The notes beneath the pieces were generated by a model, which worked only from the letters and a program-made list of their open reading frames with translations, was not told where the DNA came from and did not search any database. A program made the translations under genes and the position numbers. Positions 31,128 through 58,722 of a stretch of DNA of 64,000 bases are shown piece after piece. This stretch comes from Ianthella basta (lineage: Eukaryota; Porifera; Demospongiae; Verongiida; Ianthellidae), in the NCBI GenBank assembly GCA_964019415.1, contig OZ025889.1:5554011-5618010 (forward strand), read 5' to 3'. Within the stretch, counting starts at the first letter, position 1. Each line of letters opens with the position of its first letter.

Positions 31128-31325
31128 GCGAGTGGAAAGTTGCAGCTAGTGTACACACAGCAAAACATTTCCTGCATTAATTCTGTTCAGTCCCCTATTG
31201 TTATTCATTGTTATTTGTATGTTACAAAACCAGTAAAGTTGTATGTAGGTGGTTTCCTGGTTGAAACTGAAATGGCATAGCTCTGTATTAGATTAGGCTG
31301 TGTTTCCTAAACTGAACGTGCATGC

Positions 31326-32262
31326 ACACGGGGCAAAACATCTCCTTATTATAAGACAACAGTACAAAAATAAGGAAATGGAGTCATCAGAATAACAGTT
31401 ATTGTCTACATGTTGAAGGACACATGGCACAAATTAAAACTGTTAAAAGACTCTTGGTTGGGTTTTTAGTAGTGGCAAGAGTGTATGCATATGGGGATCA
31501 TGTGTATGCATATGGAGGTTGTGTGTATGCATATGAGGCATGGGTTGTGTGTATGCATATGGGGATCATGTGTATGCATATGGAGGTTGTGTGTATGCAT
31601 ATGAGGCGTGGGTTGTCTGTATGCATATGGACGGTGTATGCATGTGTATGCATATGGAATAATGAGTAGTGTGTGTCTGTGTGCATGTGACAGTGTCAAC
31701 TGGTGAGTCAAAAGCTTCTTGATCTTGAGGTGCTGCTCCATGGTTGTGTGTCACTGACAGATCCACTGTGCTGCTGTTACTGGGACTTTTGAGCCAGACC
31801 ATCTTACCAACTGTGGTAGCACTGCTTCAGCTCTGCTCTCCATGGCCAGTTCATTCTGCCGTGTGGTAGTAGCAGGGGACCGTTGGGGATAATTCCCTTC
31901 CAACCGCCAGCCGGTGGGGACACTCGCGTCCCTCATTCGCCTGTCGGGGCCCTGCCAGCTCCGAGTTAGGGTTATGGTACGCCTGACAGACCGGTGCGTT
32001 GTGATAGTCGCCTGTTCCAGTGTAATCGTCGAGGAGGCCGTTCGCCGTTACGATAGATAGCCAAAAGTTCGCACCTCGGACGGGTTGCCATTCTCCGCTT
32101 CGTCCTTTGTGAGGCTCAGACTTTCTCTTTCAGTGCTGCCTAAACGACCGTTCTGGAGTTGTAGGCATGGACTGGGCGTCTTTCAGGCACAAACTTCTAG
32201 CGAAACTGTCTTCCAACACTCGATACCTCGCGGCAGCCATTTTGGCGATGACGTCACACACA
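31326..32262 (-). repeat. Unclassified element X, copy 2 (inverted)
   Basis: Reverse complement of an element also at 48281-49124. Shared blocks include TGACGTCA next to AAAATGGC, CACCGGTCTGTCAGGCG, an internal run of TATGCATA-CACAC repeats (31480-31660 here) and, at the far end, ACACGGGGCAAA and ACAAAAATAAGGAAA. Both copies are bordered by CA/TG repeats. A short open frame starts at the ATG beside the CRE-like TGACGTCA but is not conserved between copies, so coding is doubtful. It may be a promoter-first-exon segment or a transposon. Confidence 0.7.
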
Positions 32263-32300
32263 CCTAACACACACACACACACACACACAAACACACACAG

Positions 32301-32591
32301 GCCCTCACAGGGACCAGTTCCACTACCCCATCCACTTCATCAATTGGTGCCTTCATCCTATCTCCTTTACTTACCTCTCAACAAACTACTGCTACTAATA
32401 GCCAGGGGGGTGTGCTAGGGGGCGGGACCTCCACAGCGTCACAGCTGGGAGTGCCCTCTACCGTCATGTCCCTCTTTGGAGCAAGCTCGATCAGTTCTGG
32501 TAGTCTGACAAGCAGTGATGACCTTCCCAGTATGCCCAGTGTGCAGGGACCTGCAGGAGGTGTACCCAACCTCACTCACAACCTTAACTAG
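32301..32591 (+). pseudogene. TAF9: TAF9 exon 5 copy
   Basis: 291 bp, fully open, ending at the same TAG as TAF9, with few amino-acid differences from the gene. The acceptor CACACAG is kept. Upstream it is joined through a CA run to element X instead of TAF9 intron 4. TAF9-type 3' sequence follows to about 32745, then switches to the low-copy unit. Without exons 1-4 it cannot make TAF9. Confidence 0.88.
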
Positions 32592-32745
32592 CTGGAACCA
32601 ATCAACAGCACCTTGTCTGTGTTCACATACAGTCACGTTTCCACCATCAACTCCCAATTGTGCAATAGGCTTTATGTGTGCTCAGCCTCTCCACACTTCA
32701 GTTGCAGTTTATGCCTGGTATGCATCACACTGCTATGATTGTTAG

Positions 32746-33840
32746 TGTAGCTATATGTAAACTAAGCATGCTCTCTTTGGCAGATGGCATTCTGGTGTAG
32801 CCAGTTATTATAGTTACCAGACCTAATTCACTATGCTACAATCTTTTCAGGGGTGTGAAAATCCCTAGGGGATGCCATATTCCTCGGTAATGTTCATTCT
32901 TGATTTTCAGAAGCCCAATCTTTTCAGAGGATGCCATATTCTCTGGTATAGTTCACCCTTATGTTTTTCTTAGTTCTCTCTTAAACCCAGTCTTTTCAGG
33001 AGATGCCAAAATTCATGAAGGATGCCATATTCCCCGGTAATGTTCACTGGTGATCTTCTGCCCATGTATTCCCCCCAGCCCCCCACATATCATAGGCTAA
33101 GAAGTGGAGGTTGGTGACTATTATTCTGGTGCACTAGCCCCCAACTTCTTATTATCACAGGCCTAGAGATGGATGGCTATGTACCTCTGGCTAACAGCTT
33201 AGCAAAATATTAACATATTTGCATAGTCGTATGAATAATTCACACTTTGCACTAGAAATAGAGGGTTAGTGTTGTTTATTATTTTGCTGAGCTGTTATAT
33301 AATTAGCTGGGTGTGTAATCTCTTTGTATAAACTATATAGCCCCTAATGTATGCTGCATTCATCAACAATGCAGGTTGTATAAGGACACAAGGTGCATGG
33401 TTCCAGTTATATTGGGCATTTTTGTTTACTCTTCTCTTGTAGAGTCGTGTCAATGTTGATCACAGCGTACTCCAGTGTAACAATCACTCTTATTGCTGTA
33501 GTAATAGCCGTATGGTCAGTTGCATGGTTGCCTGACAGTGTGACAACTCGATCGAGCTGCCATTGGAATACTTATCTACATTGCTATTCATGGATGCTTT
33601 ATTGAGATAATGTCAAGGTCCTTTCTTTATATCAGGGCTGTTGAGAAGACCAAGGGATCAAATACCTCAGCTGACCTTGCTTCTTCTATAGGTGTCAAAT
33701 CAAAATTGACACAGGAGGAACAGGAGCAGCTGAACCAGTTGTACATCATGTCCATGCATTATATCAAGAATGTGAATGTGCATGTGCACATACAATTATA
33801 GTGGTGACTGCTATACTGCATGTGCATAACATACACAGTA
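32746..33840 (+). repeat. Low-copy unit, diverged partial copy D
   Basis: Begins TAGTGTAGCTATATGTAAACTA beside the TAF9 exon copy and carries the GGTGTAGCCAG and AGACCTAATTC landmarks. Three imperfect ATGCCATATTC repeats (32872-33036) follow, then the 5' module of the membrane-protein family (GGTTGTATAAGGACACAAGG at 33373). Contents are listed separately. Confidence 0.65.
33453..33605 (+). pseudogene. Membrane-protein family member, broken
   Basis: ATG in the family position, one hydrophobic helix (VTITLIAVVIAVWSVAW) and the family turn LPDS. The frame then leaves the family sequence and stops at 33605. The C-terminal family module reappears at 33610-33801 in another frame, with KLTQEEQEQLNQ. 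A frameshift or lost intron is the simplest reading. Confidence 0.5.
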
Positions 33841-34220
33841 ATGGATAGGACAATACATTTCATTGCTCTAGTTGTGCATACAATTAACTAGCTGTATCGA
33901 AGCTAATTTACAGGCAGTAGCTACAGGGCTATTAGGGTAGTTCCTCATTGCATGCATGTAGCAGGAGTGTATGTCCACATTTTACGGGATTACCTGCCAC
34001 AAGAGTTTGGAAAGTAGGTGTGTCGGGGATTGCCCTGGCGTGCCCCACTAATAACACGTCCTTTCACTGTACGGGTGTAGCTAGCCAGGCGGTTCGGGGG
34101 GTTCGAACGAACCCCCCTCCCTCCTAACTGTGGCCATAAATTATGTGCATGTAGGTAGCTACAAGTCTGTCACGCGCGCTAGCTAGCAGACAGTGTCTTG
34201 TTTAAGGGTAACTGGTTACG

Positions 34221-34800
34221 TAGTCTCGTTCCCAGCCCAATTCCGGCCGCCATTTTATACATGGCCCGAAAGGTGGTCTGGGAAACTGAGCCCAAATTCC
34301 TGGCGCAGTGACGTCATTATCACATGAATGACGAGTTTTTACGCGCGCACTGAACATTTCTCTCCAAGTGAGATCTGTCAACATTGCCTCCGGACTAATA
34401 AATATCAACTGATAATGGCCAGCGAGAATGCCTTCCTTCGTCCTTAGATCATCGCTACCGACGGATGCACATTTCATTCCCCTACTCGAAAACTTGGCCA
34501 CTTGGTCCTCCATCAGACTTTTCAATGGTGAAACCACCATCACAATACTGTGATGCAGACGCGAGTCTGGTTTGTCGCTGGTGCGGATAAAATCGAAGAC
34601 AAAAGGAAGGAGAGCGTAACAGAAAGACTTTCCAGCTCCCGTCGGAAGTGAGATGAATACGTCTTGTCCGCTGACAAAGTGAGTGACAGCTTCGTGTTTT
34701 TCTTCTGTAAGATCCCCATAGCCCAAGCTACGCGATGCGTTAGATATATATAGCTTGTTCAATCGTCTTCTTTGAGTACGTAGCCATTTCGCAACTCCGG
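34221..34800 (-). pseudogene. RecQ-like DNA helicase, broken N-terminal fragment
   Basis: Carries helicase motif I (LPTGAGKSFCYALLPFVFDF, Walker A) and motif Ia (MVVSPLKSLMEDQV), then HYQLIFISPEAML, all typical of RecQ-type helicases. The frame leaves family sequence soon after WREMFS, where a transposon-like end (TAGTCTCGTTCCCAGCCCAA at 34221) begins; motifs II-VI are absent. At the 5' end the ATG at about 34787 reads MATYSKKTIEQAIYI and then shifts frame in a TATATATATC run before SNASRSLGYGDLTEEKHEAV. So there are at least two lesions. RecQ-like genes of this kind are often multicopy in sponge and cnidarian genomes, possibly with transposons. Confidence 0.8.
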
Positions 34801-34817
34801 TAAAGCATGTGATCTAT

Positions 34818-34943
34818 TTATGCGATCTGATTGGTTATCATTTTGCCACTAAACTCCTCTATGATGTCGGCCCAGATGTCGATCAGTCTTCGTTCGATGT
34901 CAGGTGTCCATTTGGCTCTCGTTTTCTTGCTTCCAGACGCCAT
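34818..34943 (-). pseudogene. Myb/SANT-like domain fragment
   Basis: A 41-codon frame from an ATG at 34943: basic start, then KWTPDIERRLIDIWADIIEE, which matches the first helix of Myb/SANT-like or MADF DNA-binding domains used by transposon proteins. It stops after ITNQIA. It lies just upstream of the RecQ fragment on the same strand, so the two may be pieces of one mobile element or of neighbours. Confidence 0.55.
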
Positions 34944-34987
34944 CGTTCGCTAGATCGCTCACAGAACACGGTTCACACCTTCGCCTC

Positions 34988-35150
34988 TATCGTCGCCGTC
35001 ACCGTCACCGTGGCGACCGCTGTCACGGCGACGGTCACGGTACGGCAGGGTCACGGTCGCGGTCCCGGTAAGTTATTCGTAGTGTGACCGCAAAAACGTG
35101 ACGTCACCGTCACCGTCGCCGTCACTTTCGCCGTAGTGTGACCGCCGCCT
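34988..35150. repeat. GC-rich CACCGT/ACGGTG tract with inverted symmetry
   Basis: Runs of CGTCACCGT and the inverse ACGGTGACG-type words, such as GCCGTCACCGTCACCGTG against CACGGCGACGGTCACGG, make an imperfect hairpin. The word AGTGTGACCGC appears at 35078 and 35136. CpG density is far above the neighbourhood. It could be a foldback element; none was identified. Confidence 0.6.
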
Positions 35151-35886
35151 TATAGGCTAGTCTTGTAGCTACCCAGATCCCACCTAGTGTGGCGAGCCAG
35201 CCCCTTTCTCCATTGTGCAATACTACGAGAGGGAAAGGGTCTGGTCTAACTCCTATGAAGGTTTTGTGCAGAATCTGACTGACTGAATAACCAATCAATT
35301 GCAGAATGCACATAAAACGTGTTTGCCACGCATACACTCAAATGCAATGATGACAATGAATATCATTATAACATTCTATTGCAGCGTGCTAGCTAGCCTA
35401 TGTTACGACAGCAACAGTTGAGCTGTGAGGTACGTACCAGATTGATTTCTGCTGCAGAGAGGAGAGTAAAAGCGCAAGAACGCTTGAACAGTTCACGATT
35501 CGGAGCCATTGTCCATTCTCATGCACTTGCGCGAGTATGCACTAACTTCGCCCCAATTGCACAACTTCGTTATAGGAGTTATTCCAGACCTCAATTTCTC
35601 TTGGAAATATGGTCTGGCCCCCACACTAGACCCCACCCGTCCGCCAACCATTTAAAAGCAGACTAATCATGGACTAATCTATGTTAACGTTAATTCCAAG
35701 CCAATCTCAGCAATTTCAGCGATCTGGTAATGAAAATGCATTTTTGTCAGGAGCTTCGATAAAACGGCCATCTTCACAGGTTGTCTTCACTGTTTAGCCA
35801 TGGGTGGCCCATGCAGTGTTCACTATGGCCCATGTCAGTACCTTTCAGCTTTCGTTCGTAATAAGAGAAGCATCGAACACTTCAAC
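35151..35886. other. Intergenic, no feature recognised
   Basis: Short open frames only. A stretch at 35580-35650 (GGTCTGGCCCCCACACTAGACC) resembles transposon-end sequence, but no partner was found. Confidence 0.4.
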
Positions 35887-36144
35887 TCATTCTGATGCAT
35901 GGGTGACTTCTGCACTCTCAGGCTGCTTCAAACGCTGGATCCTGCCTTTCCTTTGACAGGGAACTCTTCTTGGAAATGTAACAAGTTCTCCTACATGAGA
36001 ATGCAACGGTTTCATTCGCATTTCTGCTCCCTGATGCTTACTACCTCGCACAAATGTTTGATTAATTGCATACTTGTGGTTGCGAGGGTGGAAGAACTCC
36101 CATATAGGAAATGTGCCAGACCCTTTCTTGCCTCCCGATGACAT
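35887..36144 (-). CDS. Hypothetical short ORF in an inverted module
   Basis: 85 codons; Gly/Lys/Ser-rich start, then TFPIWEFFHPRNHKYAINQT. No domain was recognised; cysteines of a BED finger are absent. The start region is repeated in inverted orientation at about 39960-40015 (GCCTGGGGACAAGGC, then GGAGGCAAGAAAG), so it may be a duplicated promoter and first exon. Confidence 0.3.
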   Translation of the reverse strand: MSSGGKKGSGTFPIWEFFHPRNHKYAINQTFVRGSKHQGAEMRMKPLHSHVGELVTFPRRVPCQRKGRIQRLKQPESAEVTHASE

Positions 36145-36690
36145 CTAGCCTTGTCCCCAGGCACTTCGTGTTAATTGCGGGGGAGGGATAAAAGGCCTGG
36201 TACACACTGTTTTGATGACGTCACGCTTCCATAAGATGTCGCGTTTGTATATCTTGGTGCCAAATGTCTGCAAGACTTTGTATGTGTCGCGTTTGCTTGT
36301 CAGTCATGGCTGTTTCGAGGTGACAATTTAGTTTTTTCATGCAAACTGGGAACCAGAACCGGACTGGCCAATAATACAGAATCAAAAGGACTAAGGCCTT
36401 TTAGCCTTTCCCTCTTGCTCCCAGTCAAAATCACCACAAGCACTTAATAGAACAGTGAACAGAACTGATAGTGTGCTATGTGCATTTCAGCTTAAAAGCA
36501 TTGCTTATGCCTTAAATTGTGTAAGATTTTGGCATACAACTGTTTTGGTTAACTGCTTGTAGCGCACCTCTCAAAGTTTTCCTGGCATATTGACTAACAT
36601 GCGAAGATAGCCCAGCCATCATAAACAACATCATACTGTTGCGACTGTTCTGCTGCCTTTTTCTAGCACCTGTTTTAAGAGCAAATATTC
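36134..36690. repeat. Left arm of a diverged inverted repeat
   Basis: Shares GCCTTGTCCCCAGGC and GGCCTGGTACACACTGTTTTGA with the reverse complement of 39870-39985. It shares ACATCATACTG, CGACTGTTCTGCTGCC and AGAGCAAATA (36626-36690) with the reverse complement of 39052-39118. The arms flank the SWIM and THAP sequences. GCACCTCTCAAAGTTTTCCTG (36567) also has a direct match at 39314. Confidence 0.6.
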
Positions 36691-36780
36691 TATATCAATA
36701 GAACGGTTGCAACTACGTCACGGATATGACGTCATAACAACTTCCATGTGGCAAAAGCCTTTTCGTCAAGCGTAGAACTG

Positions 36781-37285
36781 ATGGCGCAGCTGGTGCACTT
36801 GTCGGACTACTACTACAGGCTCGAAGCCAAGATGAAAGCGCGCTGTCTACGCAAACTTGCCTGCTTCAAGAACAAAGATCCTTACGTACTGAAAACCAGC
36901 GATTTGTGCAATGACGTAGCTCGTTTGCCAGCTCTTAGGTTGGCATGCATGCAGCGTACGTACTGTAGCTACACGATAAGACAAGACACATGCATCTCTT
37001 CTTCCAGCTATGCAGATATTGTCGTGTACTTGCTACACACAACGTGCTTTGTAACATTGGAGGAAGTCAAGAACTTCAAGAGCCTTCAAAGTTACAAATA
37101 CTTCACCAGTGGGTGGGTACTTGAAACACAATGGAAGAAGTATTGTGATGAGGGAATGGTTGTTGTTTTGGGCAAAGTGAGGCATAGCTATGCTGCTAGC
37201 AAGTCTCCTCTCAAACCAACCGGTTGAAATTGCACATTGCACTTGCATGGCTGGGTTGGCTGAAAACTTGCTCACACGTTGCACA
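36781..37285 (+). pseudogene. SWIM zinc-finger protein fragment
   Basis: The frame begins at ATG 36781. It has the segment CNDVARLPALRL, then YFTSGWVLETQWKKY, VVVLGKVRHSYAAS and SPLKP, which I recognise from a metazoan multicopy family in which a SWIM finger (CxC...CxH) is paired with a YqaJ-like nuclease. The first finger half, HCTCMAGLAE, follows in another frame at 37232-37264 (stop at 37225-37227). CSHVA lies one frame further. Past about 37285 the DNA belongs to an antisense THAP transposase. So it is truncated and frameshifted. Confidence 0.65.
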
Positions 37286-37289
37286 CAGC

Positions 37290-38522
37290 TACATCAAATC
37301 CTCTATCAGCAAGAACAACATCTCCTGGGAGGAGATGCTTCAAGTAAACTGAGTTCTCAACAATGTACCTGTCAGAGAACCTTCCTCCCCACCCATCAGA
37401 GATGAAACATATATATCATTGAGGTGTGATACTGATCAAATACTTGGCTGTGTTATAGTGCTTGTATTGTGACCATGTACAGTTCTTGGCAAGCAGATTT
37501 GAGGGTCTCTCGATAAATATTTCAAAGCAGTCAATAATAGACGTGACTTTCAAACCATAATTACAACGAAAGCAGAAAGGCATTGTTCTTTGCAAAGATA
37601 AATGATCTGGCCATTTGATTAAGAAGGAAAGTTGGGTGTCCATTGCCTCAATCCATCATGAGAAAACATGACTTACTGTGGCTTCACTAATACCAAATCG
37701 ACATGCAAGATCGTAATTACCCAGATTCAGACGCAGTTTCATGAGGGTGAGAGTAAAGCATTGGAAATGGGTAAGTTTTGCTACTGGACTCTCATGGATT
37801 GCTACAGAAACTATCTCGAACAATGCAAGGAGAACGGTAAAGCTACCGAAGCCAGTGTAGAAACGACACATTTTGTCATCATTCCTTAAGTCCTCCTGCT
37901 CAGGATGAGCTTTTGCATGCCTAGTACGTAGCTCAGATAGCTCCTCTAGTCGTTTCCTATAGTCATCTTCTACAGAAAGCAGATGAGATGCTGTTAAATC
38001 TGTCTGTGTACCAGAACACGTCTTGTTAGGTTTGTATTCTACTGGCTCTAGATCATTTGGTTGATCTGCATTGCACTTAGTGTTACCAACAGCTTCATTC
38101 CTGACTTTAGCTTCCTTTCTTCGTTTAGAGGCAATGTACCTATTCATGCTCTGTTCTGCTCTCTTTCTCTTCAGAGCAGCAGTTAAGGAAAACAAACTAG
38201 GAACATACGCGGGAGATAAGGGATCATCTTTCTTTTCACCTACAGCAATATATAAAACAATGCAGTTGCTAGGTACACTCTGCAGGCAGAGGAAGATCTC
38301 AGGCTAACTACATACGACAGCTACAGCCTCCCCACCTCCTACAAAGTGCTGGCTACAAATCACTGTGTCAGGTGTAGGGTGAAAGTCCCTTCAGTTTATG
38401 GCATTGAGCCACAGCCTTCGTTTAGCTTCATCTTGAGAAATTCTATAAAACTTTATTCCTGCTTCCCGGGTCTCCTTAACATTGCGCGCTGTACAATTGT
38501 ATGCGCAACACGATCGAACCAT
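37290..38522 (-). pseudogene. THAP-domain DDE transposase (ISL2EU/Harbinger-like), broken
   Basis: Exon 1 (38522-38336) is a THAP C2CH finger: MVRSCCAYNC, FYRISQDEAKRRLWLNAIN and VICSQHF. A GT-AG intron follows. Exon 2 (38239-37290) continues DDPLSPAYVPSLFSL, a basic linker, a transposon helix-turn-helix (LACRFGISEATVSHVF) and the DDE_Tnp_4 fold: [24 protein letters not shown] (first D), [22 protein letters not shown] and VVLADRGFD (second D). Three TGA stops interrupt it (after LNAIN, after HVFS and after ITPQ), and the part with the final E is missing at the junction with the SWIM fragment. It is dead as a transposase gene. Confidence 0.85.
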
Positions 38523-38679
38523 TGTAGAACAATATTCCAGTCAGTTAAGAACTCATTGGCAGCTGTACGTGCTTTGTAGCATCCACCCCAACGCGCCGTG
38601 TGTATGTACGCAGACCTCTTTTGCCACACGGAAGTGATTGCGCAACGTTTATGACGTCACATGCAACCGCTCTATATAA

Positions 38680-39035
38680 TGGTTGGTGCATACGCCATAG
38701 TCTGCACATGGTACAACTTCCCTATGAGCTCAAATAATGCCGTATTAGTTCAGAATGCTTTAGAATCATCCCACATGAGCAGTATCCCGCATTACAAGGG
38801 GAATGCTGCAGTAAAGAGTCCATTAGCGCATAGGCAGAAATCGCCATTATAATTCACGTAACTATAATTATAATTAAATCGTACAACTGTCCATGAGCTC
38901 AGATATTGCCACAGCATTTCAGAATGCCTTCACAATGCAAACTACTGCTCCTTTGGGATGATTTCATAGGCATTCTGAACTGCTGTAGCATTGTTTGAGC
39001 TTACTGGGAAGTTGTACTGTGCAGTCCAGGGCGTA
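38680..39035. repeat. Three related 60-110-bp segments, one inverted
   Basis: TACAACTTCCCTATGAGCTC with TTCAGAATGC (38692-38760) recurs as TACAACTGTCCATGAGCTC and TTTCAGAATGCC (38882-38930). It recurs inverted as GGCATTCTGAACTGCTG...GAGCTTACTGGGAAGTTGTA (38969-39016). The last two form an imperfect hairpin. Confidence 0.6.
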
Positions 39036-39049
39036 TATGTGCAGTATAG

Positions 39050-39990
39050 CTTATTTGCTCTTACAGCGGGTGCTAAGAAAAAGGCAGCAGAACAGTCGCT
39101 CCAGTATGATGTTGTACAATAGCTGGGATATCTTTGCATGGGAGGTTACTAGTTATACAGCCCATTTCTCCTTGAATGTAGTCTAGATCACCAGAGATAC
39201 GTCACAGAACAGTGATAGTATGTAAGGTGATTTTGACTTTAGAATTGTTTCAATGGCTTTCGTTCGTAAGAGTACGGGTGCAAACTAATTTCTGTTCAAC
39301 TGCTTGTAACAGCGCGCCTCTCGAAGTTTTCCTGACACAATGACCAACTCATGCGAGAGAAATCTCAACTCTGCGCAATAGGTTTCCAAACTAAAACTAA
39401 GTTGCCACATTTTATATTGTCAAAACAGCCATGTTGGAGGTTAGCCCAAAGCTACCCTCTGTCTTGTTCAGCCCAGCGAGGTCGAAGGGAGACATCTTGG
39501 ACACCGTAGTTAGCATCTGTTGGTGCCATTCTACGAAAGCGACGGACTGCCATCAGAGTTGCCGAGCGAAATTCGAGTCCATCACAAACACACTGCGCAA
39601 GGTCTGCCAACTAGCTATACACTTCGCAGCTTACCACCACATTTTTAATGTTGAAAAACGGCAGCACCTTGTAGCGAGTGGAAATCCCACACATTCTCTC
39701 GGTAGTCACAAGTATAAATGTCCTCCCGCTCATGCAGGAGAAGAGTGGCAGCCAGCTGCTCATGTTTCAGTGCAATGTCAGGCAGTCTGACACGAAAAAG
39801 AGAGTACGAATGTGCCTTCACTGAATCCGCCTTTGATCATTATACGGATAACATACTGGCGTGTCAGATTCCATCACCAGCTTTTCCTGGTATAACTTGC
39901 ACAATCACAACAGTGTACACCAGGCCGTCCTTCCCGCCCATGCTAATTATTGCGAACGGCCTGGGGACAAGGCTAGATGACATCATAATA
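39050..39990. repeat. Right arm of the diverged inverted repeat
   Basis: Inverse partner of 36134-36690 (see there), longer because other sequence is interspersed. The open frame at 39431-39790 has no recognisable domain and is not called. Confidence 0.5.
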
Positions 39991-40019
39991 TAAAAATGGA
40001 GGCAAGAAAGTGGTCTGAG

Positions 40020-42063: not shown

Positions 42064-42069
42064 TGAATA

Positions 42070-43179: not shown

Positions 43180-43222
<43 letters not shown>

Positions 43223-46957: not shown

Positions 46958-46959
46958 AT

Positions 46960-48170: not shown

Positions 48171-48173
48171 TGA

Positions 48174-48237: not shown

Positions 48238-48280
48238 GTGTGTGTGCGAGTGTGTGTGCATGCATGCGTGTGTGTGTGTG

Positions 48281-49124: not shown

Positions 49125-49148
49125 CCGTGTGTGTGTGTGTGTGTGCAG

Positions 49149-50608
49149 GGTATGTGACAACCGTGCTAGAGGATGCCAAGGTGTACTCAGAACATGCACA
49201 AAATAAGGAAGTGGACGTCTCGGATGTGAAGCTTGCTGTGGAGAGCAGGATAGACCACTCCTTCACATCCCCACCCCCCAAAGAGGTGAGGACAGCCACG
49301 GACTTGAGTTTGTACCTAACATTTCTCAGCACCATCATCATCAATCATGTTATAAGAAGTGCAAGTTTATATAATAGAGTAATCTGCTTCCAGGAACATG
49401 GTAAATATTAATTTAGTTGTGGTAAGTGAACAAATTGATGCTACTTACCCAGATGTGTGCCATAGAACTTGTTGTTAGCAAATGAATTGACAAGGGCTCC
49501 ATTACATAAGTTGATGGATGTTCATGAAGACAGGTTGGGGCTGGAGTGTACAGTATCCAAGCTCTCTTCCACTGACACTGTCTATCATCTGATGGTTGAC
49601 TGATGTGTGTTGAGTATTATGTAATTTGAGTGAATAATTTGGAGCTTTATAGTTTTGTTTTGCCTTCCCTGACTGTTGGCTGTGACTCTATTTCAGGTCC
49701 TTTAGGAGTTTGCACGGCAGAGGAATTCCATGCCACTCCCACTTGTACCAGAGAAGTTTGGACTCCGCCTCCCTCCCGAGAGGTACTGCCTCTCTGGTCC
49801 AAACTACCGCATCAAGCACAAACCGAAGCAGGTAACACACCACACTAGGGTGTTCACATGCCACCTACCTGGAGGCATACACAGGGGTATTCATTGTCAT
49901 GTATGTCTTACAGGTACAGTGGATGATGTATACACATGTGTTGGCTTCAAGGTAGCGTCATTCTTCTGTTCTTCTGTTATGCTATTATATGCATGGATGT
50001 GTTGCATATAAAGTTACCATGCTACACAGCACTGGTTTGTATCTTTTGACCCATTGTTATTCACATCCTCTCCTGTTGCCTGCTGCCTACTTCCCCTCTT
50101 CCCCTCTTCCCCCCTTTCCTGCTCTCCTCCCATCATCTCTTCCTTTCCCATTCCCTTCTTGCTATCCTCCTCCCCTCCCCTCCCCTCCCCACCCCTCCCA
50201 TCCCCTCCCCTCCCCTCCCCTCCCCACCCCTCCCATCCCCTCCCCTCCCCTCCCCTCTCCTCTCCTCCCCCTCCCTTCCCCTCCCCTCTCCCTCCCCTCC
50301 TCCAGCCTTTAGGCCCAGCTGTACCCCTAACTGCTACATTCAGACACCAGCTGTCCGCTGCAGGGGGAGCAGGAGTGGAGGTCTCCATCCCTCCTAGCGT
50401 CCTTGGTCAGATGGCAGGACAACCACCACACCAGCTTGCAAAGACAGACGTGAGTGAAGACGAGATGTCTTGTGGAATAGAGTGACACAGTTGCACTGCA
50501 GTGGTGTGATGGATGCTGTGGGGCTGTCTTGGGGTGTTGGTGCTATGTAGTTTGAATGTGATGTGTGTTCTACCTCTCTCTCTCTCCACGTGCACACACA
50601 CACACACA

Positions 50609-50696
<88 letters not shown>

Positions 50697-50986
50697 CCCT
50701 CACAGGGACCAGTTCCACTACCCCATCCACTTCATCAATTGGTGCCTTCATCCTATCTCCTTTACTTACCTCTCAACAAACTACTGCTACTAATAGCCAG
50801 GGGGGTGTGCTAGGGGGCGGGACCTCCACAGTGTCACAGCTGGGAGTGCCCTCTACCGTCATGTCCCTCTTTGGAGCAAGTCCGATCAGTTCTGGTAGTC
50901 TGACAAGCAGTGACGATCTCCCCAGTATGCCCAGTGTGCCGGGACCTGCAGGAGGTGCACCCAACCTCACTCACAACCTTAACTAG
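49149..50986 (+). pseudogene. TAF9: TAF9 second copy, exons 2-5 with an in-frame stop
   Basis: Exons 49149-49285, 49697-49831, 50306-50449 and 50696-50986 match TAF9 exons 2-5 with all splice sites kept. Exon 1 is absent. Exon 3 starts GTC CTT TAG where the gene has GTC CTT TTG, so the frame stops two codons into the exon. Introns and the 3' flank are also duplicated, with different microsatellite lengths. It is a segmental duplicate, not a retrocopy, since introns are present. Confidence 0.92.
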
Positions 50987-51973
50987 CTCGAACCAATCAA
51001 CAGCACCTTGTCTGTGTTCACATACAGTCACGTTTCCACCATCAACTCCCAATTGTGCAATAGGCTTTATGTCTGATTGGCCTCTCCACACAGTCTATGC
51101 CTGGTACACGTCACACTGCTACGATTGTACAGTACCTTCACTCCAATGGACCAGGCAAGAGCTTGCTTTTATGCATGGGCTAGTGTGTACATGTGGGTGT
51201 GGGACTGAAACCAAAAATTAAAATTAAAGATGAAAGTCCATGACATCATACTCTGTCCCGTTTAGGGCCTTTCTGGTCTCTTGTGTCTAGCTACTTCACT
51301 TGACTAGAAGTTTCCCTGGACTGGATCATTCTGTGCAGTTTGAGCTGTGATGAATGTGAGATGGGAGTGCAGCACTTTCAGACTCTGCTTACCCCTCCTC
51401 CATCACCCACAGGAGGGCATAATTATGCCCTCCCTGTGACATGATAGAGGTTGGTTTACGCGCGGTTGCCATGGCAACGGGGTATTATCTGTCCCACCCC
51501 TCTCGGCCATGTGGTCAGTTGCAAGCCTAACTGGGGTGGGCTAAATCTCAGAAATCTGATGCTGTGACGTCAGAGCGGCCCTGATGTCATGGACAGCAGT
51601 CCTAGCGCAAACCATAGACCCTACAACAATGCCTGTATGAATCTGTAGCCTAGGTATACTAGGCCTACCATAATAGGATGACTAAATGTATAGAAGAGAC
51701 TAAAAATAAAACCAGTCCTAACCCTAACCCTAAAATCCAAGCATGCTAAGCACATTGGCCGAGCATGCTAAGCACATTGGCCGAGCAAGCTAACCCCAGT
51801 GGCCGAGCGAGCTAACCCCAGTGGGGGCAAGCCAGATGAGCAGAATCCAAGCGAGCCACCAGCGAGGACAGCGAGCGGTAACGGTAATGATACCACCAAA
51901 CTCAACTGCTCCCGTCCTACTCTATTGCGACAGCGTAGCTAAACAAGCCAGGGAAGGCAGCAAGGAGTCGACC
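50987..51973 (+). repeat. Duplicated TAF9 3' flank with short minisatellite
   Basis: Matches 13047-15189 but lacks the hairpin MITE and the hAT element and has only about three or four 22-bp units. It represents the pre-insertion state of the TAF9 locus. Confidence 0.9.
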
Positions 51974-52079
51974 AAGCGAACCACCAGAACGAACCGCCAA
52001 AACCAACCGGCCATTGTGAGCAACAGTATTTTATACTAGTTACTTAGGGTAAGTAACGAAGTTTATACAGTTTACTGCA

Positions 52080-55000
52080 GTAATTTAATGTATGAATATA
52101 GTATATCAATTAAATAAATAAATAATATATATGCTGCTAAATTCTTCCTACAGTAGATCTGCACTAAAACATGCAGTAGCGCAAAAATTGGGGCACAGTC
52201 ACCTGTGCTCACATGCAAGTCATAGTAAAATGTAATTAAGAATTGAAATCATTTAAATCAAATTGATCCTTGATTGTGCCCAAAACAGCAGCTGCGTTGC
52301 CCCTCTGCATGGCAACTGAGATCCTCTGGAAGAGGAATTGAAGGGAGCGTGGCTCCCCTGTTTCTGCCTTGATACGGTGTCCTAGTTCGCAGAGGAACTG
52401 GAGGGCTTCAGGACCGCAGACACCTGTGGTCTCTATGGCCACTGGAACAAAGTGGTGGCTTGCTTTCAGTTCAGCATACTTCATATGTTTCCTTTGCTCT
52501 GCCTGAGCTGCAACAGCGCCTGCTTCTCTGGTTGCTAGCGAGATGTGGGAGGGGGCGAAGGTGTCGGGACAAGTTGCGTCCCACACCAGGACCCGGCCAG
52601 TCTTCCAAGGCATGACTGTGGCTCCATCAGGTCTTTTGCCGTCTGACAGGCATATGCCACTTGGTTCCAGGTGAGAGGGCACCCCCGCGGATGTTAGCGA
52701 TCGCTTAATGATATCGTTGATGGCTGTGTGGCGGGGATGTCTGCCCTGGCTTCTACGGCAGCTTAGCCCGTGGAGGCCCTGGTGATCCACTTGTGTTTGG
52801 CAGTGCTTGCACAAGTGTGGGTGGCACAAAGAGACTCCTAAACGAAGACCCATGGCCACCCGGACCACCTCTTTGTCCATGCGCAGACCCAAAGATGATA
52901 CCGGGAGGGCCTGAAGCCATGCCCCAGACTCCTTTGTACAAGCAGCAAGCAGGCGGGCCCGTGTGGGTGCATCCGGAGCAGTCTCCAGGAGCTTCTTGTA
53001 TGCCAAAGTCACTCGGGGAGAGTCCCAGGACCGCTGAAGGGAAGAGGCTGGAGCCGGTGGGGGGGGATTGTCATGCCCACTGCTCCAGAGGGCGAGAGCA
53101 ACTCCATGAAAAGGACAGGGTGCCTCCTGTAATCGTGGTGGGAGGATCTGGTGGGTGAGCTCGGAGGAACCAGCAGCAGAGGCCAAAAAGGCGGAAGGTG
53201 CAAGCTGAGATGCACTCCGAACTCCTAACCCTCCAGACCATACCGGGAGAACAGCTTGAGCCCAGGCTCGATCATTGGCATCAAGGGAAATGTTGGCGAT
53301 GTCTGCCAGCAGAGATCTCTGTAGGTCATCGAACTTCTGAAGCTGCGAGGATAGAAAACAAGGGGCAGTTCGTAAAGTGTAGAGCATCTTGGGTAAGGCA
53401 AAAGCATTTCTGAGAAGGCAGAATCCATCATGCGCATGGAGCAACCGGAGCCTGTCCCCCATCAAAGCCAAAGCTGAGGTTTTGGCTCCAATGGCGTCCT
53501 CGATCCCTTCAACTGAGTTACCAACCGGTGAACCCAGGAGGGTGGCATGGTCTTGGCTCACCACACAAAATTGAGGAAAGGCAGCAAGCATCGACTGTCT
53601 TGTGGCAGGGTCGTCACAGATTATCTCCGACTTTCTGTGGTTCAGCTGGAGACCCATGTCACCAGCGACTCGTTCCACCATGTGCACATCTCTCAGGACT
53701 TCCTCCAGACTGCCTCCCAGGGTCCCATCGTCTAAGTAAAACACTCCAAATTCTCCTCTCAACTGCATTAACATGTCATGAATGGTGAGGCAGAACAGTA
53801 GGGGGCCCAAGGGGTCTCCCTGTTGTACGCCTTCAGATGACTGAAGGACAGATTCCCCAAAGAAAAGGGAAGATGGGCTGCTATAAGCCGAGTGAATGAG
53901 TGGATATAGCTCAGGCACCATCTCTCTAACTGCTGCGAGCATCTTGTCCCGGTGCAGGCAGTTAAAAGCATTCCGGAAGTCCAACTTCAGGATGAGGTGC
54001 TGTGGCTGCAGGTTGTGGAGGTATATGCGGGTGGCATGGACAGCAGCTTCGGCTCCGCGTGGAATGCCATACCCCAGCTGCTTGGGTCTCAAGAGCTCTG
54101 CCATGGCCTGCATAATCCTGTTTCCGGCACATTTAGCTACCAACCGTCTGAGGGTACAGCCAACAGCAATTGGCCTGACTCCGCCGTCCTTCTTCTCTAG
54201 GGCTATTAAAGAAGCTCCGAAAAAATAGGGGCGCGTGATGGATAAGGTCTTCCCCTCTAGGATCAGGTTGGTGAATGAGGTAAGCGCTCTCAACAGTTGA
54301 GGACCACCCCCCTCCTCCACTGTGCCAATCATGTCTTTGAGGTGTTGTGGGCGAAGCCCATCCGGGCCACCCGCTGACCCACAAGGGAAGGACCTGATAG
54401 CCCTAGCCACCTCCTCCGGAGACACCTGGACAGCTTGACCCTCAGTGGGAGCAGGAGGGGGACAATAGTTGGGGTGGGGGGCAGGGTGTTTGTCTTTGAG
54501 GGCCTGTAAGGTTCTGTCGTTGGGTTCTGCAATGGAATCTTCCGAGCTGGCAAGTCGGACTGCCCCCTTAAAGTCCCCCTCTTCTAGTTTCGATGCCACC
54601 CTGACTGAGAGAGTCTCCAGGGGATCCCGGGGTTGTCTACGGCACTGCTTGACTGAACTCTGCTGGGGAGACTCTGGGTCCGCTTCCTCTCTGATCATCT
54701 GGTTCACATGGGAGGCCAGACTTCTGCGGTGTCCACCTCGCTTCGGTACTCGGAGACAACGGGGTGCAAATTGGAAGAGGCGATCCCACGAGGCTGCGCT
54801 GTTGTCAGTTGAAACCAGGTCGAGGATGGTGGCTAACTTTCTGGCAGCCAGTCCTCGGGACGCCCGGGGGATTCGCTTAAGAATGTTCACCGATGGTCTT
54901 CTAGGACGAAAATCCTGAGCAGGGGTTCTCTCCCTCTGGGGGAGCGAGGATGGAGGGTTCCGCGAGCCTGGGCACCGATCCTCCACTGGGCCGTGAACAC

Positions 55001-55260
55001 GAATGAGCCCCGCTTTCGTTAATGGCATTGTGCGGAGGCAGATCGGACATTGTGCGCGGGAGGGATCTTCGAGCTGACTGGTCGATTGACACTCCGATGG
55101 TTCGGGCCGATCGTTGACCTCAATCGAAGACATACTGTAGACAATTTCGCTGTTTGACAAATGTCGAAGACGCAGTTCTGATCACAGTTCTGATCACTCG
55201 ACTCAACTCAACCCAGCTCGAATCTGCGCGCCATCAGCCGCCATCTTTGTTGCAAAATTT
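52080..55260 (-). mobile_element. Non-LTR retrotransposon with restriction-like endonuclease
   Basis: Contains one long ORF (listed next), a 3' region of about 150 bp that ends in a TTTA-rich tail (about 52099-52131) and a 5' region of about 100 bp bordering an AT repeat. Boundaries are approximate; no target-site duplication was identified. Confidence 0.8.
52236..55133 (-). CDS. Reverse transcriptase with C-terminal restriction-like endonuclease
   Basis: 965 codons from the first ATG (55133); the frame stays open nine codons further upstream. A C2HC finger lies at the N terminus (CPICLRTMPLTKAGLIRVHG, then C). RT motifs are FPCGSAGGPDGLRPQHLK, ILKLDFRNAFNCLHRDKM, VQQGDPLGPLLFCL and the catalytic FYLDD (about residue 465). 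The C terminus has a CCHC knuckle (CKHC, then H and C in QGLHGLSC) followed by KRPDG and LVWDATCPD, the PD...D of a restriction-like endonuclease. This order, finger, RT, knuckle, endonuclease, is that of R2/R4/CRE-type non-LTR elements. No stop or frameshift was seen, so it may be recently active. N-terminal AP endonuclease is absent. Confidence 0.92.
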   Translation of the reverse strand: MSSIEVNDRPEPSECQSTSQLEDPSRAQCPICLRTMPLTKAGLIRVHGPVEDRCPGSRNPPSSLPQRERTPAQDFRPRRPSVNILKRIPRASRGLAARKLATILDLVSTDNSAASWDRLFQFAPRCLRVPKRGGHRRSLASHVNQMIREEADPESPQQSSVKQCRRQPRDPLETLSVRVASKLEEGDFKGAVRLASSEDSIAEPNDRTLQALKDKHPAPHPNYCPPPAPTEGQAVQVSPEEVARAIRSFPCGSAGGPDGLRPQHLKDMIGTVEEGGGPQLLRALTSFTNLILEGKTLSITRPYFFGASLIALEKKDGGVRPIAVGCTLRRLVAKCAGNRIMQAMAELLRPKQLGYGIPRGAEAAVHATRIYLHNLQPQHLILKLDFRNAFNCLHRDKMLAAVREMVPELYPLIHSAYSSPSSLFFGESVLQSSEGVQQGDPLGPLLFCLTIHDMLMQLRGEFGVFYLDDGTLGGSLEEVLRDVHMVERVAGDMGLQLNHRKSEIICDDPATRQSMLAAFPQFCVVSQDHATLLGSPVGNSVEGIEDAIGAKTSALALMGDRLRLLHAHDGFCLLRNAFALPKMLYTLRTAPCFLSSQLQKFDDLQRSLLADIANISLDANDRAWAQAVLPVWSGGLGVRSASQLAPSAFLASAAGSSELTHQILPPRLQEAPCPFHGVALALWSSGHDNPPPPAPASSLQRSWDSPRVTLAYKKLLETAPDAPTRARLLAACTKESGAWLQALPVSSLGLRMDKEVVRVAMGLRLGVSLCHPHLCKHCQTQVDHQGLHGLSCRRSQGRHPRHTAINDIIKRSLTSAGVPSHLEPSGICLSDGKRPDGATVMPWKTGRVLVWDATCPDTFAPSHISLATREAGAVAAQAEQRKHMKYAELKASHHFVPVAIETTGVCGPEALQFLCELGHRIKAETGEPRSLQFLFQRISVAMQRGNAAAVLGTIKDQFDLNDFNS

Positions 55261-55269
55261 TTGCAAATT

Positions 55270-55340
55270 TGCAAGTTGCAATATAGTATATAGTATATAG
55301 ATATAGTATATATACTATATCTATATATATAATTCAGTTC
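55270..55340. repeat. TA-rich repeat
   Basis: ATAGTATATAGTATATAG-type sequence between the retrotransposon and the Helitron; a likely target for both. Confidence 0.8.
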
Positions 55341-55355
55341 GTTTATTTTATTGAA

Positions 55356-55759
55356 TCTATAATTATATATAATTCAGTTCGTTTGTTTGTCTGTTCGTTC
55401 GCGATTCGGGCAAAAACTACTGCACAGAACGCCACCAAGCTCTCAGGGATTATAAAGTGGGGCTCCGCGAGTGTCCTCCATGGTTTGAAATCGCCCGTTT
55501 TGCAGTTCTTGAAGAGATATCCTATTTCCGGATTTTCGTTCGCGGCTGACGGCCATTTTATTAATTATCGCTCTCTGTACTTCCGGTTTTCCGACAGTTT
55601 GATTCGCTGTCGTTCAACGATCAAATTTGAACCCGGCCGTGGGTTATAGCAGGTACCTTCCGTTGCTACCAGCTAACATACGTCAAAACTGGCTGGGGCC
55701 GACTCGCTGTTGTGCGACTCGCCATAGCAGAAGCCTGCCAAAGGCGGGCGCCCTGCTAG
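55356..55759 (+). mobile_element. Non-autonomous Helitron
   Basis: The 3' end has the diagnostic structure: a 7-bp stem GCCTGCC/GGCGGGC (55733-55749, loop AAA), six bases, then CTAG (55756-55759) followed by T. The 5' end begins TC in TCTATAATTATATATAATTC (55356), or one near-duplicate earlier at 55320. No Rep/helicase ORF is inside. It is inserted at the left border of low-copy unit B. Confidence 0.82.
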
Positions 55760-56913
55760 TTTAGTATATATAGTCCGTTATTTTCACGCGATCTGACCGG
55801 CCTAGGCCTAGTATAGCTAACTGTGTAAACTACGCATGCTCTCATTGGAAGATGCCATCATGGCATTCTGGTGTAGCCATCTGTTATAGCTGCAGACCTA
55901 GTTCGCTATGCTGTCTACAGGGAAGCTTGAATCCGAAGTCAAGCCCCTCAGAGGAATTGGACTTTAGAGTGAGAGAATGTCACTTTCAACTAAAATAGAC
56001 TAGTAGTTGAGGATTACACTACAGCCAGTACCACAAATCATGGGTGAGACGGAGACCCCTTTAAGAGCTGCTTCATAGGTTTTGAACCAAGTAGCACAGT
56101 GCCTCTCTAAAACCTTTAGCTAGCTATATTACTCACAATTTGGAAACAGATCCAGGGGCATAGCCAGGATTTTTAAGGTGGCTTGTTATGGCACTCACCT
56201 CGAATACCAACCAGAGGTGAACACTAGATGTGTTGGACAGTTCCTTCCTCTTCCTTCACTTGGTGGAACAAAGTATTCACCCTTGTACATATATCATTAA
56301 GGTTCTGTTTGAGTGTATCACCATCTTAGAACAGAGCGCAAAGGTCTGGGTTACATTTGTTCCAGGTCAAGATATACCATATCCGCTCTAAAACTTTGTC
56401 AACCCTAGTGCAGCGAAAATTTTGTCTTTTGAGCCAATTTAAGCTGGAATGGAGTAGACCGTTGAAGGTGATGAATATTTAGAGTTTTTGGACGAAACAT
56501 TAGACAGAAGATGAAACATTAGAGAGCTCTTCAGTATGGGCGTTCCTTGCTGAAATGGCCGCTTTCACATTGACTGTGCGAACAGCATCCGAACGAGAAG
56601 GGTCTGGAGACGATTCGCGATCACTGAACTCTATTGTCGCACCAAAAGGAAAATGAACGATATACACAGCGCCAAGAAGGCTTATAGACGAACGGAACAA
56701 TGCCAGAAGAGCAAAGACAACAGCGAGCATTGTTGGCTTTGTTCCTTGGCCGTCGCAGCCATATTGCAGGCATTTCCGACGAATATTTAGAACACTTCCT
56801 GTTCATGACGAAAATTAGAGCCCAGAGTGTGTAATCTCTATGTATAAACTAATTATAGCCACTACTGTATGTTGCATTTTTAGGTTGTATGTATAAGGAT
56901 AGAACATGCAACC

Positions 56914-57267
56914 ATGCATGGCTCCAGTTACATTAGACATGTACAGTACTGTTATGTTACTCTTCTCTTGTACAGTGGTGTCAAGACTGTTAACATGGTC
57001 CATCCAGCACATGTTAATAGCATTGGTATGGTAATCGTAGCAGTTGCTGCAATAGTAGCCATAGTGGCAATTATATTAGCAGCATGGATTCCTGACAGTT
57101 GGGCAGTTTTCGCTAGCATTTCCGGAATTGTCTGTATCGTTGCAATAAGTGCTGTGGTCTGGACATGTATGGATTGGAATGTTCATGGAACTGTCCGCAA
57201 AGCTCACGAGAAGATGGCAGAGTTACAGCACGAAGACGTCAACCATGCAATTGGATTTTCAGATTAG
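56914..57267 (+). CDS. Small two-helix membrane protein, family member B
   Basis: 117 codons, or 91 from the Met at 56995 that matches copy A. Helices are IGMVIVAVAAIVAIVAIILA and ISGIVCIVAISAVVWTC, joined by AAWIPDSWAVFAS. The soluble tail DWNVHGTVRKAHEKMAELQH is close to copy A. In this copy the shared upstream segment ends in TAG after WLQLH, so translation from the upstream Met is not possible and 56914 or 56995 must serve. Changes from copy A leave both helices intact, suggesting the protein is kept. Confidence 0.62.
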   Translation: MHGSSYIRHVQYCYVTLLLYSGVKTVNMVHPAHVNSIGMVIVAVAAIVAIVAIILAAWIPDSWAVFASISGIVCIVAISAVVWTCMDWNVHGTVRKAHEKMAELQHEDVNHAIGFSD

Positions 57268-57648
57268 AACAGTTAAATTGACACAGAAGGAACAGGAACA
57301 ATTGAAACAGAAGTGTAGTACAGCAGAAGTGTAACATAGACTAAAGTACTTTTTGGGTCGGTTGTCCCGACCAGATGGTTGCAATTGATTATCGGTTATC
57401 AATTATCAACCTAGCAACGTCATTTTTGCGTGACCTTTAATAGGTGTACAGGAGATTCAGGGTATGTGGTGAAGGCGGGTGACCTGAATCACCAACTGGT
57501 TGTGATTTGACAGTTTTCTCAGTGGTCTGGAACGCAGGTTACAGAAAATCGTTGCATGCGATCAGTACGAGTCTGTTCAGCCCCCGCGCTGTCTGTTCAC
57601 TTATTGTGACGGTGTTTTCCTCCTGGTACAGAAACGTCCCCACCATTC

Positions 57649-57912
57649 TTAGCCTTTAATCATCCGAATACGCTTTATCTCAGTCTTCCTTGTTCCAAAC
57701 ACTGCTGCTTCAGCTAGACTTGTAGCCGCCATAATGATGTCACCAGGTTGATAATGGATAACTGATTGCATATATCCGGTTGGGACAACCGACCCAAAAT
57801 ATACTGTAAGTGTAAGATAGCAATAACAAGGATCAAAGGCATGATTGGCAGGACAAGATAGAAGTGCTGAACAACACAAGACATGACTTTGCATGATTAG
57901 AACACTTTGCAT
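57649..57912 (-). CDS. Short conserved minus-strand ORF, copy B
   Basis: Counterpart of 30571-30801. It ends VVPTGYMQSVIHYQPGDIIM, AATSLAEAAVFGTRKT and EIKRIRMIKG. The frame is open in both copies. Function unknown. Confidence 0.4.
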   Translation of the reverse strand: MQSVLIMQSHVLCCSALLSCPANHAFDPCYCYLTLTVYFGSVVPTGYMQSVIHYQPGDIIMAATSLAEAAVFGTRKTEIKRIRMIKG

Positions 57913-58023
57913 ATAACTTTGTATCTGAGCAGATTCAGTGTGTGTGCTTCATTGAAGTCCTATAAGTCATGTCTATCGAGTCCATTTGTCACACTGCTTG
58001 AACGAGATAGTCCTGTTACGCAC

Positions 58024-58068
<45 letters not shown>

Positions 58069-58139
58069 TTAAACAAACTAGATCCACGAGTTCTTGCAAC
58101 AAGTAATGTTCACAGCAAGGTTTACAAAATGCATCAACC

Positions 58140-58238
58140 CTTTCACCCCAAGGGCCCAACCCTGACAACATTTCAGACTTTTGGCAGATGATTTGGTTCC
58201 ACAAACCCGCAGTGATCATCATGCTAACAAAGGGTCAA
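58140..58238 (+). pseudogene. Protein-tyrosine-phosphatase exon fragment, copy B
   Basis: Encodes LSPQGPNPDNISDFWQMIW and FHKPAVIIMLTKGQ, followed by an intact donor GTGAGT (58239). No neighbouring PTP exons were found, so it is an orphan exon or part of a gene with exons outside what I can recognise. Confidence 0.65.
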
Positions 58239-58442
58239 GTGAGTGGAAAGTTGCAGCTAGTGTACACACAGCAAAACATTTTCTGCATTAATTCTGTTCA
58301 GTCCCCTATTGTTATTCACATGAATGCAGTATATACCAGGTATGTTGCAAACCAGTAAAGTAAAGTTGTATGTAGGTGGTTTCCTGGTTGAAACTGAAAT
58401 GGCATAGGTCTGTATAAGTTTAGGCTGTGTTTCCTAAACTGA

Positions 58443-58444
58443 AT

Positions 58445-58510
<66 letters not shown>
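58443..58510. repeat. CA microsatellite joining unit B to a TAF9-flank module
   Basis: About 68 bp of pure CA. To its left is unit B; to its right begins GCCTGGAATGGAGCATTCCA, which corresponds to CTGGACTGGAGCATTCC of the TAF9 3' flank (13389). Confidence 0.93.
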
Positions 58511-58514
<4 letters not shown>

Positions 58515-58722
58515 GCCTGGAATGGAGCATTCCATGCAGTTTGAGCTGTAATGAATGTGAGATGGAAGTGCAGCACTTTCAGACTCTGCTTAACCCTCCT
58601 CCATCACCCGTAGGAGGGCATAATTATGGTGATACGTAGATGCTGGTTTACGCGCGGTTGCCATGACAACGGAATATTGTCTGTCCCGCCCCTCGCGGCC
58701 AAGTGGTATTGTAAGCTTAACT
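58511..58722 (+). repeat. TAF9 3'-flank module, third copy
   Basis: Matches about 13389-13595 and 51322-51530 (GCAGCACTTTCAGACTCTGC, GGAGGGCATAATTATG, CGCGGTTGCCATG). No TAF9 exon accompanies it. Confidence 0.85.

Follow-up and report, generated by a model that had tools for sequence, protein, structure and literature searches.

A (TG)n-resident mobile element and decaying gene copies as a likely source of CA/TG-bordered joints in a sponge duplication cluster

Introduction

In the window analyzed here, a stretch of 64,000 nucleotides from the sponge Ianthella basta, fragments of several genes abut one another at CA or TG microsatellites, which raises the question of whether such repeats guide the building of new exon combinations or mark the traces of other processes. 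An earlier note listed six of these joints, took the joined sequences to be unrelated at their home loci and proposed exon-scale shuffling guided by microsatellites. CA or TG runs are indeed present at all six places, the one at 31.32 kb being only a short, imperfect stretch (ACGTGCATGCACAC). Yet they do not amount to six fusions of unrelated sequences: one recurrent partner, element X, is a mobile element with dispersed copies, and the pieces labeled UBXN7 and TAF9 exon 5 come from one parental locus. We consider it probable (roughly 0.8) that a duplication cluster decaying by deletion and insertion, together with a CA-targeting retroposon, X, explains the listed joints.

The duplication cluster and its parental TAF9 locus

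The joints lie in a local segmental-duplication cluster of about 110 kb (8.7–118 kb in window coordinates), in an array that is 67% covered by duplicated chains and is free of any N. Direct orientation prevails in 120 of the 126 cluster chains of at least 200 bp, the chain set having been reduced from 190 to 181 by removal of nine chains nested in others. An Rfam scan of 8,747–64,000 returned nothing at gathering scores. The features from which the argument starts are:

8747..64000, no strand: the part of the segmental-duplication cluster within the window, from chain alignments
9727..13603, + strand: TAF9 locus P1, parental-like, and the neighbor upstream of it, from Pfam, alignments and joint letters

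The gene labels fare unevenly. TAF9 is backed by a Pfam match (PF02291) on 11,085–11,531, in the exon 2 frame; the exon 5 frame has no match in Pfam, and the exon numbering is that of the earlier note. The POLD3 match (PF09507) falls slightly under the Pfam cut-off, and UBXN7 finds no support in the two frames compared with Pfam or the one compared with PDB. The single PDB match of the UBXN7-labeled frame, CFAP141 (E 0.039), was taken for chance.

P1 carries a native CA tract at 10,091–10,306, a TG tract at 11,132–11,265 immediately ahead of exon 2 and a CA tract at 12,709–12,754 immediately ahead of exon 5. Thus, the proposal that home loci bear CA tracts exactly where the fragments are joined holds for these three points. 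It does not extend to POLD3, where three copies lack a TG tract at the corresponding point (the letters are CTCTTAGTGCC at 63.4 and 116.5 kb and CTTCTTGGTGCC at 42.9 kb), nor to the TAF9 3′ flank, where a CA tract is absent at the joint in all three homes (13,385; 67,979; 78,267).

Element X, a dispersed family residing in CA/TG repeats

Element X is about 0.9 kb long and falls into two subfamilies, each with one copy in the window:

31325..32255, − strand: element X subfamily 1, sitting in (TG)n, from the genome search and end letters
48237..49131, + strand: copy of element X subfamily 2, TG edges included, between a POLD3 fragment and TAF9 exon 2

The subfamily 1 copy has its 5′ end (TGACGTCATCGCCAAAATGG) at about 32,255 and its 3′ tail (...AATAAGGAGATGTTTTGCCCC) at 31,325; in the subfamily 2 copy the element proper begins with TGACGTCA at about 48,280. 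The tail takes the form AATAAGGAGA..GCCCC(GT)n. Genome searches recover subfamily 1 matches on many chromosomes, with identity of up to 95–97% (40 of 213 candidates scored), and two further searches with X, in which 40 candidates out of 504 and 40 out of 167 were scored, again gave hits on many chromosomes. The tail-hairpin pattern has 61 exact matches genome-wide, the reversed pattern 0, and the 5′-end pattern, which includes GTGTGTG, has 28; the tail and 5′-end patterns are not equally strict.

X copies share a single type of target. At 21 loci elsewhere, picked from among the better-scoring and mostly complete copies and hence not random, 38 of the 40 ends read have a CA/TG run of 10 bp or more within 40 bp, the two exceptions having runs of just 8 and 5 bp; the background is 2.5–3.9% of windows. 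Throughout these 21 copies, X has a single orientation relative to the CA/TG repeat. Target-site duplications are not discernible inside a dinucleotide repeat. The element also has a constant 3′ end with 5′-truncated copies, two of which were examined. One (L043) retains the tail in about 122 bp, and its truncated edge is not at a TG run, the nearest being about 100 bp off; the other (L089) spans 468 query bases, and its truncated edge adjoins a long TG tract. A 3′ hairpin is predicted with z −4.0 in subfamily 1 and z −0.8 in subfamily 2, where 38 of 200 shuffled sequences fold equally well. A reverse transcriptase was not found in X or beside it, and among the 150 of 3653 reverse transcriptase candidates listed, compared by eye, none is closer than 10 kb to one of the 61 tails.

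Because of the constant 3′ tail and the 5′-truncated copies, we infer that X is a non-autonomous, (TG)n-targeted retroposon. Its integration into (TG)n/(CA)n would probably proceed by target-primed reverse transcription, with the 3′ GCCCC tail on the GT strand. The suggestion of insertion targeted to CA repeats can be retained for X and for no other component. With X being mobile and dispersed, four of the six joints reduce to the ends of two X insertions, which would have entered microsatellites at gene-fragment boundaries.

Probable deletions among old gene copies

The remaining joints fit deletions among old, decaying gene copies. The copies of TAF9, POLD3 and their neighbors, nearly all direct, would have decayed through deletion and insertion, with segments lost by deletions that broke within a CA tract at one end or at both, whether by slippage, single-strand annealing or microhomology end-joining. 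The clearest case is the joint at 43.5 kb:

43093..44118, + strand: TAF9 copy C2, consisting of an upstream-neighbor piece (= 9,727–10,205), CA and exon 5 (= 12,709–13,344)

In a single parental locus its UBXN7-labeled and exon 5 pieces are separated by 2.4 kb, and C2 is equally diverged from this one stretch on the two sides of its CA tract, with 92.5–93.2% identity on one and 93.1% on the other. The joint is what an internal loss of about 2.4 kb, running from one CA tract to another, would leave; it is the only one that combines collinear parental parts with a junction in a shared repeat, as a CA-mediated deletion would predict. A genome search with the upstream piece gave two long matches, the parental one and the joint itself (40 of 173 candidates scored).

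The joints involving the duplicated units A and B are built from the following:

29606..31329, + strand: unit A, offset by 27 kb from its duplicate, unit B, and ending at the CA-like site that holds X
32255..32742, + strand: TAF9 exon 5 copy C1, to the right of element X
56659..58511, + strand: unit B, with (CA)33 where unit A has X, and there joined to a TAF9 3′ flank

C1 is 92.8–93.0% identical to 103,982–105,007 over its longer extent, and the X at 31.3–32.3 kb has no X-less counterpart with both flanks. The unit A/exon 5 joint can reasonably be read as the outcome of recombination or deletion at CA tracts. The flank joined to unit B resembles those at 13,385 and 67,979, and this joint has CA on one side only. 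A CA-tract deletion is probably behind both.

The second X insertion separates a third pair of fragments:

47827..48237, + strand: POLD3-derived fragment, ending at a TG run
49127..51532, + strand: TAF9 copy C3, from exon 2 to the 3′ flank, with its left edge in a TG tract

The same POLD3|TG|exon 2 joint, with CA on one side only, recurs free of X at 103.3–104.1 kb, outside the window. This counterpart has a hairpin insert of its own and is hence not a pristine empty site. A further joint at 103.9 kb, where exon 2 is cut mid-exon, also has CA on one side only, as a CA-tract deletion affecting one side would leave it.

Breakpoints and alternative explanations

The foremost alternative is that CA tracts guide the building of new exon combinations, by template switching or ectopic recombination from tract to tract. 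CA/TG tracts are over-represented at breakpoints: 26 of 331 raw breakpoints lie within 10 bp of one, against a rotation mean of 5.9, and 0 of 5000 rotations reach 26. Left out of these counts are alignments that overlap themselves as hairpins or tandem repeats, those shorter than 80–100 bp and those confined to any of six stretches of minisatellite or low-complexity sequence. Homologous sites were collapsed by star clustering on base-level maps; a single-linkage collapse, which gave 29 components with one engulfing most sites, was discarded. Even after collapsing, 12 of 97 non-redundant breakpoints are at CA/TG, versus 2.2–2.9 expected, an excess of about 4–5-fold. However, two of the 12 (10,124 and 10,306) are one CA tract aligned to itself and two hold element X ends, so about 8 are left. 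Some of these are the two edges of a single tract.

Moreover, CA on both parental sides is plausible at two joints (43.5 kb and unit A/exon 5), for which recombination or deletion at the tracts is a fair option, but it is not the pattern of most joints; POLD3/exon 2, unit B/flank and the joint at 103.9 kb have CA on one side only. Within the parental TAF9 locus, CA/TG tracts extended by 10 bp on either side occupy 12% and take in 4 of 16 breakpoints, which is not significant (P about 0.12). The tract-free POLD3 and flank homes and the exon broken at 103.9 kb also speak against such shuffling, and 85 of the 97 non-redundant breakpoints lie away from CA; most breakage in the cluster takes place outside CA tracts. 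With donors that are local duplicates, microsatellite-guided shuffling finds no support as the general rule, and we regard it as unlikely. If the CA joints stem from a mobile element and from deletions in decaying copies, it is not needed.

A combined process, in which X settles in exon-bordering microsatellites and its cutting of CA provokes deletions and joints, making the CA-flanked TAF9 exons preferred units of rearrangement, appears improbable. Slightly harder to credit is that X itself created the joints, by recombination between its copies or by carriage of flanking DNA. At both X copies of the window the left and right flanks do come from different sources; against this, X is missing from the POLD3|TG|exon 2 joint at 103 kb, identity between the two X copies is just 67.5%, and 29 of 39 other scored matches (40 of 504 candidates scored) end at the identical base, the start of the TG run, which indicates that X does not usually carry flanks. 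Least credible, it seems, is mis-joining in the assembly, for which CA tracts of about 40–215 bp in a duplicated region would be plausible sites, but the joint pieces differ from their counterparts by about 5–17%, two separate copies have the POLD3|TG|exon 2 joint in common, the array has no N, and both long matches of the upstream piece are accounted for among the candidates scored.

Implications and comparison with known systems

A decaying duplication cluster visited by X would reduce a puzzling mosaic to two ordinary processes. The analysis also uncovers a compact (TG)n-resident element family whose many copies allow studies of targeting, and it advises caution, as CA tracts bordering gene fragments may merely mark insertions of an X-like element.

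Gene copies that undergo birth-and-death within clusters of segmental duplications are a known pattern, which the present cluster resembles in its direct local copies, truncated gene fragments and internal deletions; it differs in that several CA/TG tracts adjoin exons of the parental gene. Among elements with comparable targets, Mino is autonomous. It belongs to the R1 clade and inserts into AC repeats, a dinucleotide target identical to that of X (PMC3124438). Similarly, the Togen families are NeSL-related non-LTR retrotransposons of fish that are specific for (TG)n microsatellites (PMC4640811). Both Togen and X insert into (TG)n, the non-LTR type of X being a probable assignment; X differs in its length of about 0.9 kb and in that no reverse transcriptase was found in it or next to it, and the two are likened by target, not by sequence. 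The LINE/SINE elements of the “stringent” type are characterized by a conserved 3′ stem-loop (PMC3747384), and X is like them in its constant 3′ tail, possible hairpin and 5′ truncation. Unlike theirs, the hairpin of X is convincing in one subfamily only, and the tail of X continues into (GT)n, the very repeat that X targets.

Segmental duplication around the TAF9 locus

The best reading of the locus is a decaying segmental-duplication cluster that received two (TG)n-targeted retroposon insertions and lost sequence by deletions sometimes breaking in CA tracts. When the window (contig positions 5,554,011-5,618,010) and the surrounding 200 kb were placed in their native order and compared with themselves, we found one local cluster spanning 8.7 to ~118 kb (window coordinates, continued past the window's end). 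Duplicated chains cover 67% of it, and of the 126 chains that reach 200 bp or more, 120 are in direct orientation. The histone-fold frame of TAF9 has a PF02291 match. When the exon 5 stretch was searched genome-wide (32/32 candidates scored), its exon 5 part turned up only in this cluster. The POLD3 C-terminus matches PF09507 slightly under the cut-off. None of the frames tried supported the UBXN7 identity given in the earlier note; we therefore term that piece the upstream neighbour.

Features of the cluster and its edges (window coordinates)
1-8746: 20-bp satellite, CAAGATCTACTAAGATTTGG, ~438 copies in an 8.7-kb array adjoining the cluster
9,727-13,603: parental-like TAF9 locus with its upstream neighbour
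~10.7-13.6, 32.3, 43.5, 49.1-51.5, 58.5, 64.9, 65.9-68.2, 73.7, 74.6-78.5, 93.8 and 104.0 kb: TAF9-related pieces (self-comparison)
13902-15041 and 51740-51824: 22-bp minisatellite, TAF9 3′ flank
29,606-31,329: unit A
31,325-32,255 (-): element X, subfamily 1
34202-34813 (-): DEAD-box helicase piece, PF00270
37656-38303 (-): DDE-endonuclease-associated HTH domain, PF13613
48,237-49,131 (+): element X, subfamily 2
56,659-58,511: unit B, duplicate of unit A
60284-60613: 142-bp inverted repeat, arms 99% complementary

Mis-joining in the assembly (209 Mb, 96 contigs) is argued against as the source of the joints: no N was found within the array, the joint pieces are ~5-17% diverged from their counterparts, one joint occurs in two separate copies, and the two long genome matches of the upstream piece are both explained (40/173 candidates scored). 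Chains of 400 bp or more stay at or below 96.5% identity, except for a young Gypsy-type LTR retrotransposon (16022-20627; LTRs of 293 bp that are 100% identical to each other, and an open pol frame of 1048 codons), whose second copy at 96,567-101,172 is 99.8% identical and hence a recent insertion or duplication.

CA/TG tracts at the breakpoints

The earlier note had proposed exon-scale shuffling guided by microsatellites from six CA/TG-bordered joints. The observation is partly borne out. The CA/TG excess at breakpoints is real but modest. In the raw count, a CA/TG tract is found no more than 10 bp away at 26 of 331 breakpoint sites (rotation mean 5.9; 0/5000 rotations as high). Because homologous copies repeat the same breakpoint, we collapsed them, which left 12 of 97 at CA/TG against 2.2-2.9 expected; two of these 12 are one CA tract aligned with itself, two include ends of X, and some of the rest are both edges of a single tract. 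Restricted to the parental TAF9 frame, the count is 4/16, at 12% coverage (P ~0.12). CA is absent at the other 85 collapsed breakpoints, including an 11,040/11,818 gap common to two copies and edges near 13,197 and 13,344.

The claim that the home loci carry CA at the joints fails for two parents: POLD3 at 63.4, 116.5 and 42.9 kb lacks a TG tract at the joint position, and the TAF9 3′ flank, which at 58.44-58.51 kb adjoins the CA of unit B, has no CA there at its homes (13,385, 67,979 and 78,267). The POLD3/upstream-neighbour joint at 43,093 similarly has no CA tract.

Four of the six joints are ends of two X insertions: those at 31.32 and 32.26-32.30 kb are the tail and 5′ end of one copy, and those at 49.13 and 48.24 kb the tail and 5′ end of the other. 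Unit B holds (CA)33 where unit A holds X. The unit A/exon 5 adjacency is likely a CA-to-CA joint; a caution is that the sole other full copy of the edge found (40/570 candidates scored), unit B, also lies at a joint. Unit A also contains a ~455-bp MITE-like repeat with inverted ends (30276-30730), with 38 further occurrences when 40 of 570 candidates were scored.

At 103.3-104.1 kb, a further copy runs in the order POLD3, TG, hairpin insert, a second TG run, ~41 bases from the start of TAF9 exon 2, (CA)n and exon 5; the POLD3/TG/exon 2 joint thus occurs in the absence of X. On inspection, the exon 2 piece of this copy shows 1/41 differences from the 49-kb copy and 3 from the parental locus. 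The ~100-bp hairpin inside the TG tract (~9,611-9,710 of the fetched stretch L019, 103,611-103,710 in window coordinates) is perhaps another microsatellite-resident element.

The 43.5-kb joint combines 9,727-10,205 (92.5-93.2% identity) with 12,709-13,344 (93.1%), two same-strand stretches of the parental locus separated by ~2.4 kb; this fits a deletion between two CA tracts of one duplicated copy. Such deletions may have arisen through slippage, annealing or end-joining at CA.

Element X, a (TG)n-resident mobile element

Element X is mobile. Its 926-bp body at 31.3 kb is matched on many chromosomes, at up to 95-97% identity (40/213 candidates scored). The second subfamily, represented at 48 kb, also has matches across many chromosomes (40/504 and 40/167 scored). 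Among the 40 scored of 504, 29 of 39 non-window matches start at the same query base, the TG-run start at 48,237. We examined 40 ends at 21 loci (subfamily 1, both ends at nine and one at two; subfamily 2, both at ten), a non-random sample chosen among better-scoring, mostly complete copies: 38 ends have CA/TG runs of 10 bp or longer within 40 bp; the background frequency of such runs is 3.9% among 40-bp windows of this region and 2.5% among those of the fetched loci L041-L048. At the two exceptional ends the runs measure 8 and 5 bp. Orientation is constant among the ends examined, reading (TG)n-TGACGTCATC...GCCCC-(GT)n on the element strand.

The tail-hairpin pattern has 61 exact matches genome-wide versus 0 for the reversed control, and the 5′-end pattern, GTGTGTG included, has 28, the two differing in strictness. 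Folding of the tail hairpin is strong in subfamily 1 (z -4.0) but unconvincing in subfamily 2 (z -0.8). Two 5′-truncated copies were examined: the one in locus L043 keeps about the last 122 bp, its truncated edge lying ~100 bp from the nearest TG run, and the one beside locus L089, with 468 query bases retained, has a long TG tract directly at its truncated edge. From the constant 3′ end, 5′ truncation and single orientation, we infer that X fits target-primed reverse transcription, by which it would have inserted into (TG)n.

No reverse-transcriptase partner was found: among the 150 listed of 3653 reverse-transcriptase candidates, by-eye comparison placed none within 10 kb of any of the 61 tails. 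The window itself carries a 981-codon reverse transcriptase frame (PF00078) at 52236-55181 (-), with an AT-rich repeat just past its 5′ side (55,281-55,331); by eye, the motifs at its C-terminus resemble those of the restriction-like-endonuclease type of non-LTR element.

Microsatellite-specific elements are on record elsewhere: Togen of fish is a (TG)n-specific non-LTR element (PMC4640811) and Mino an (AC)n-specific one (PMC3124438).
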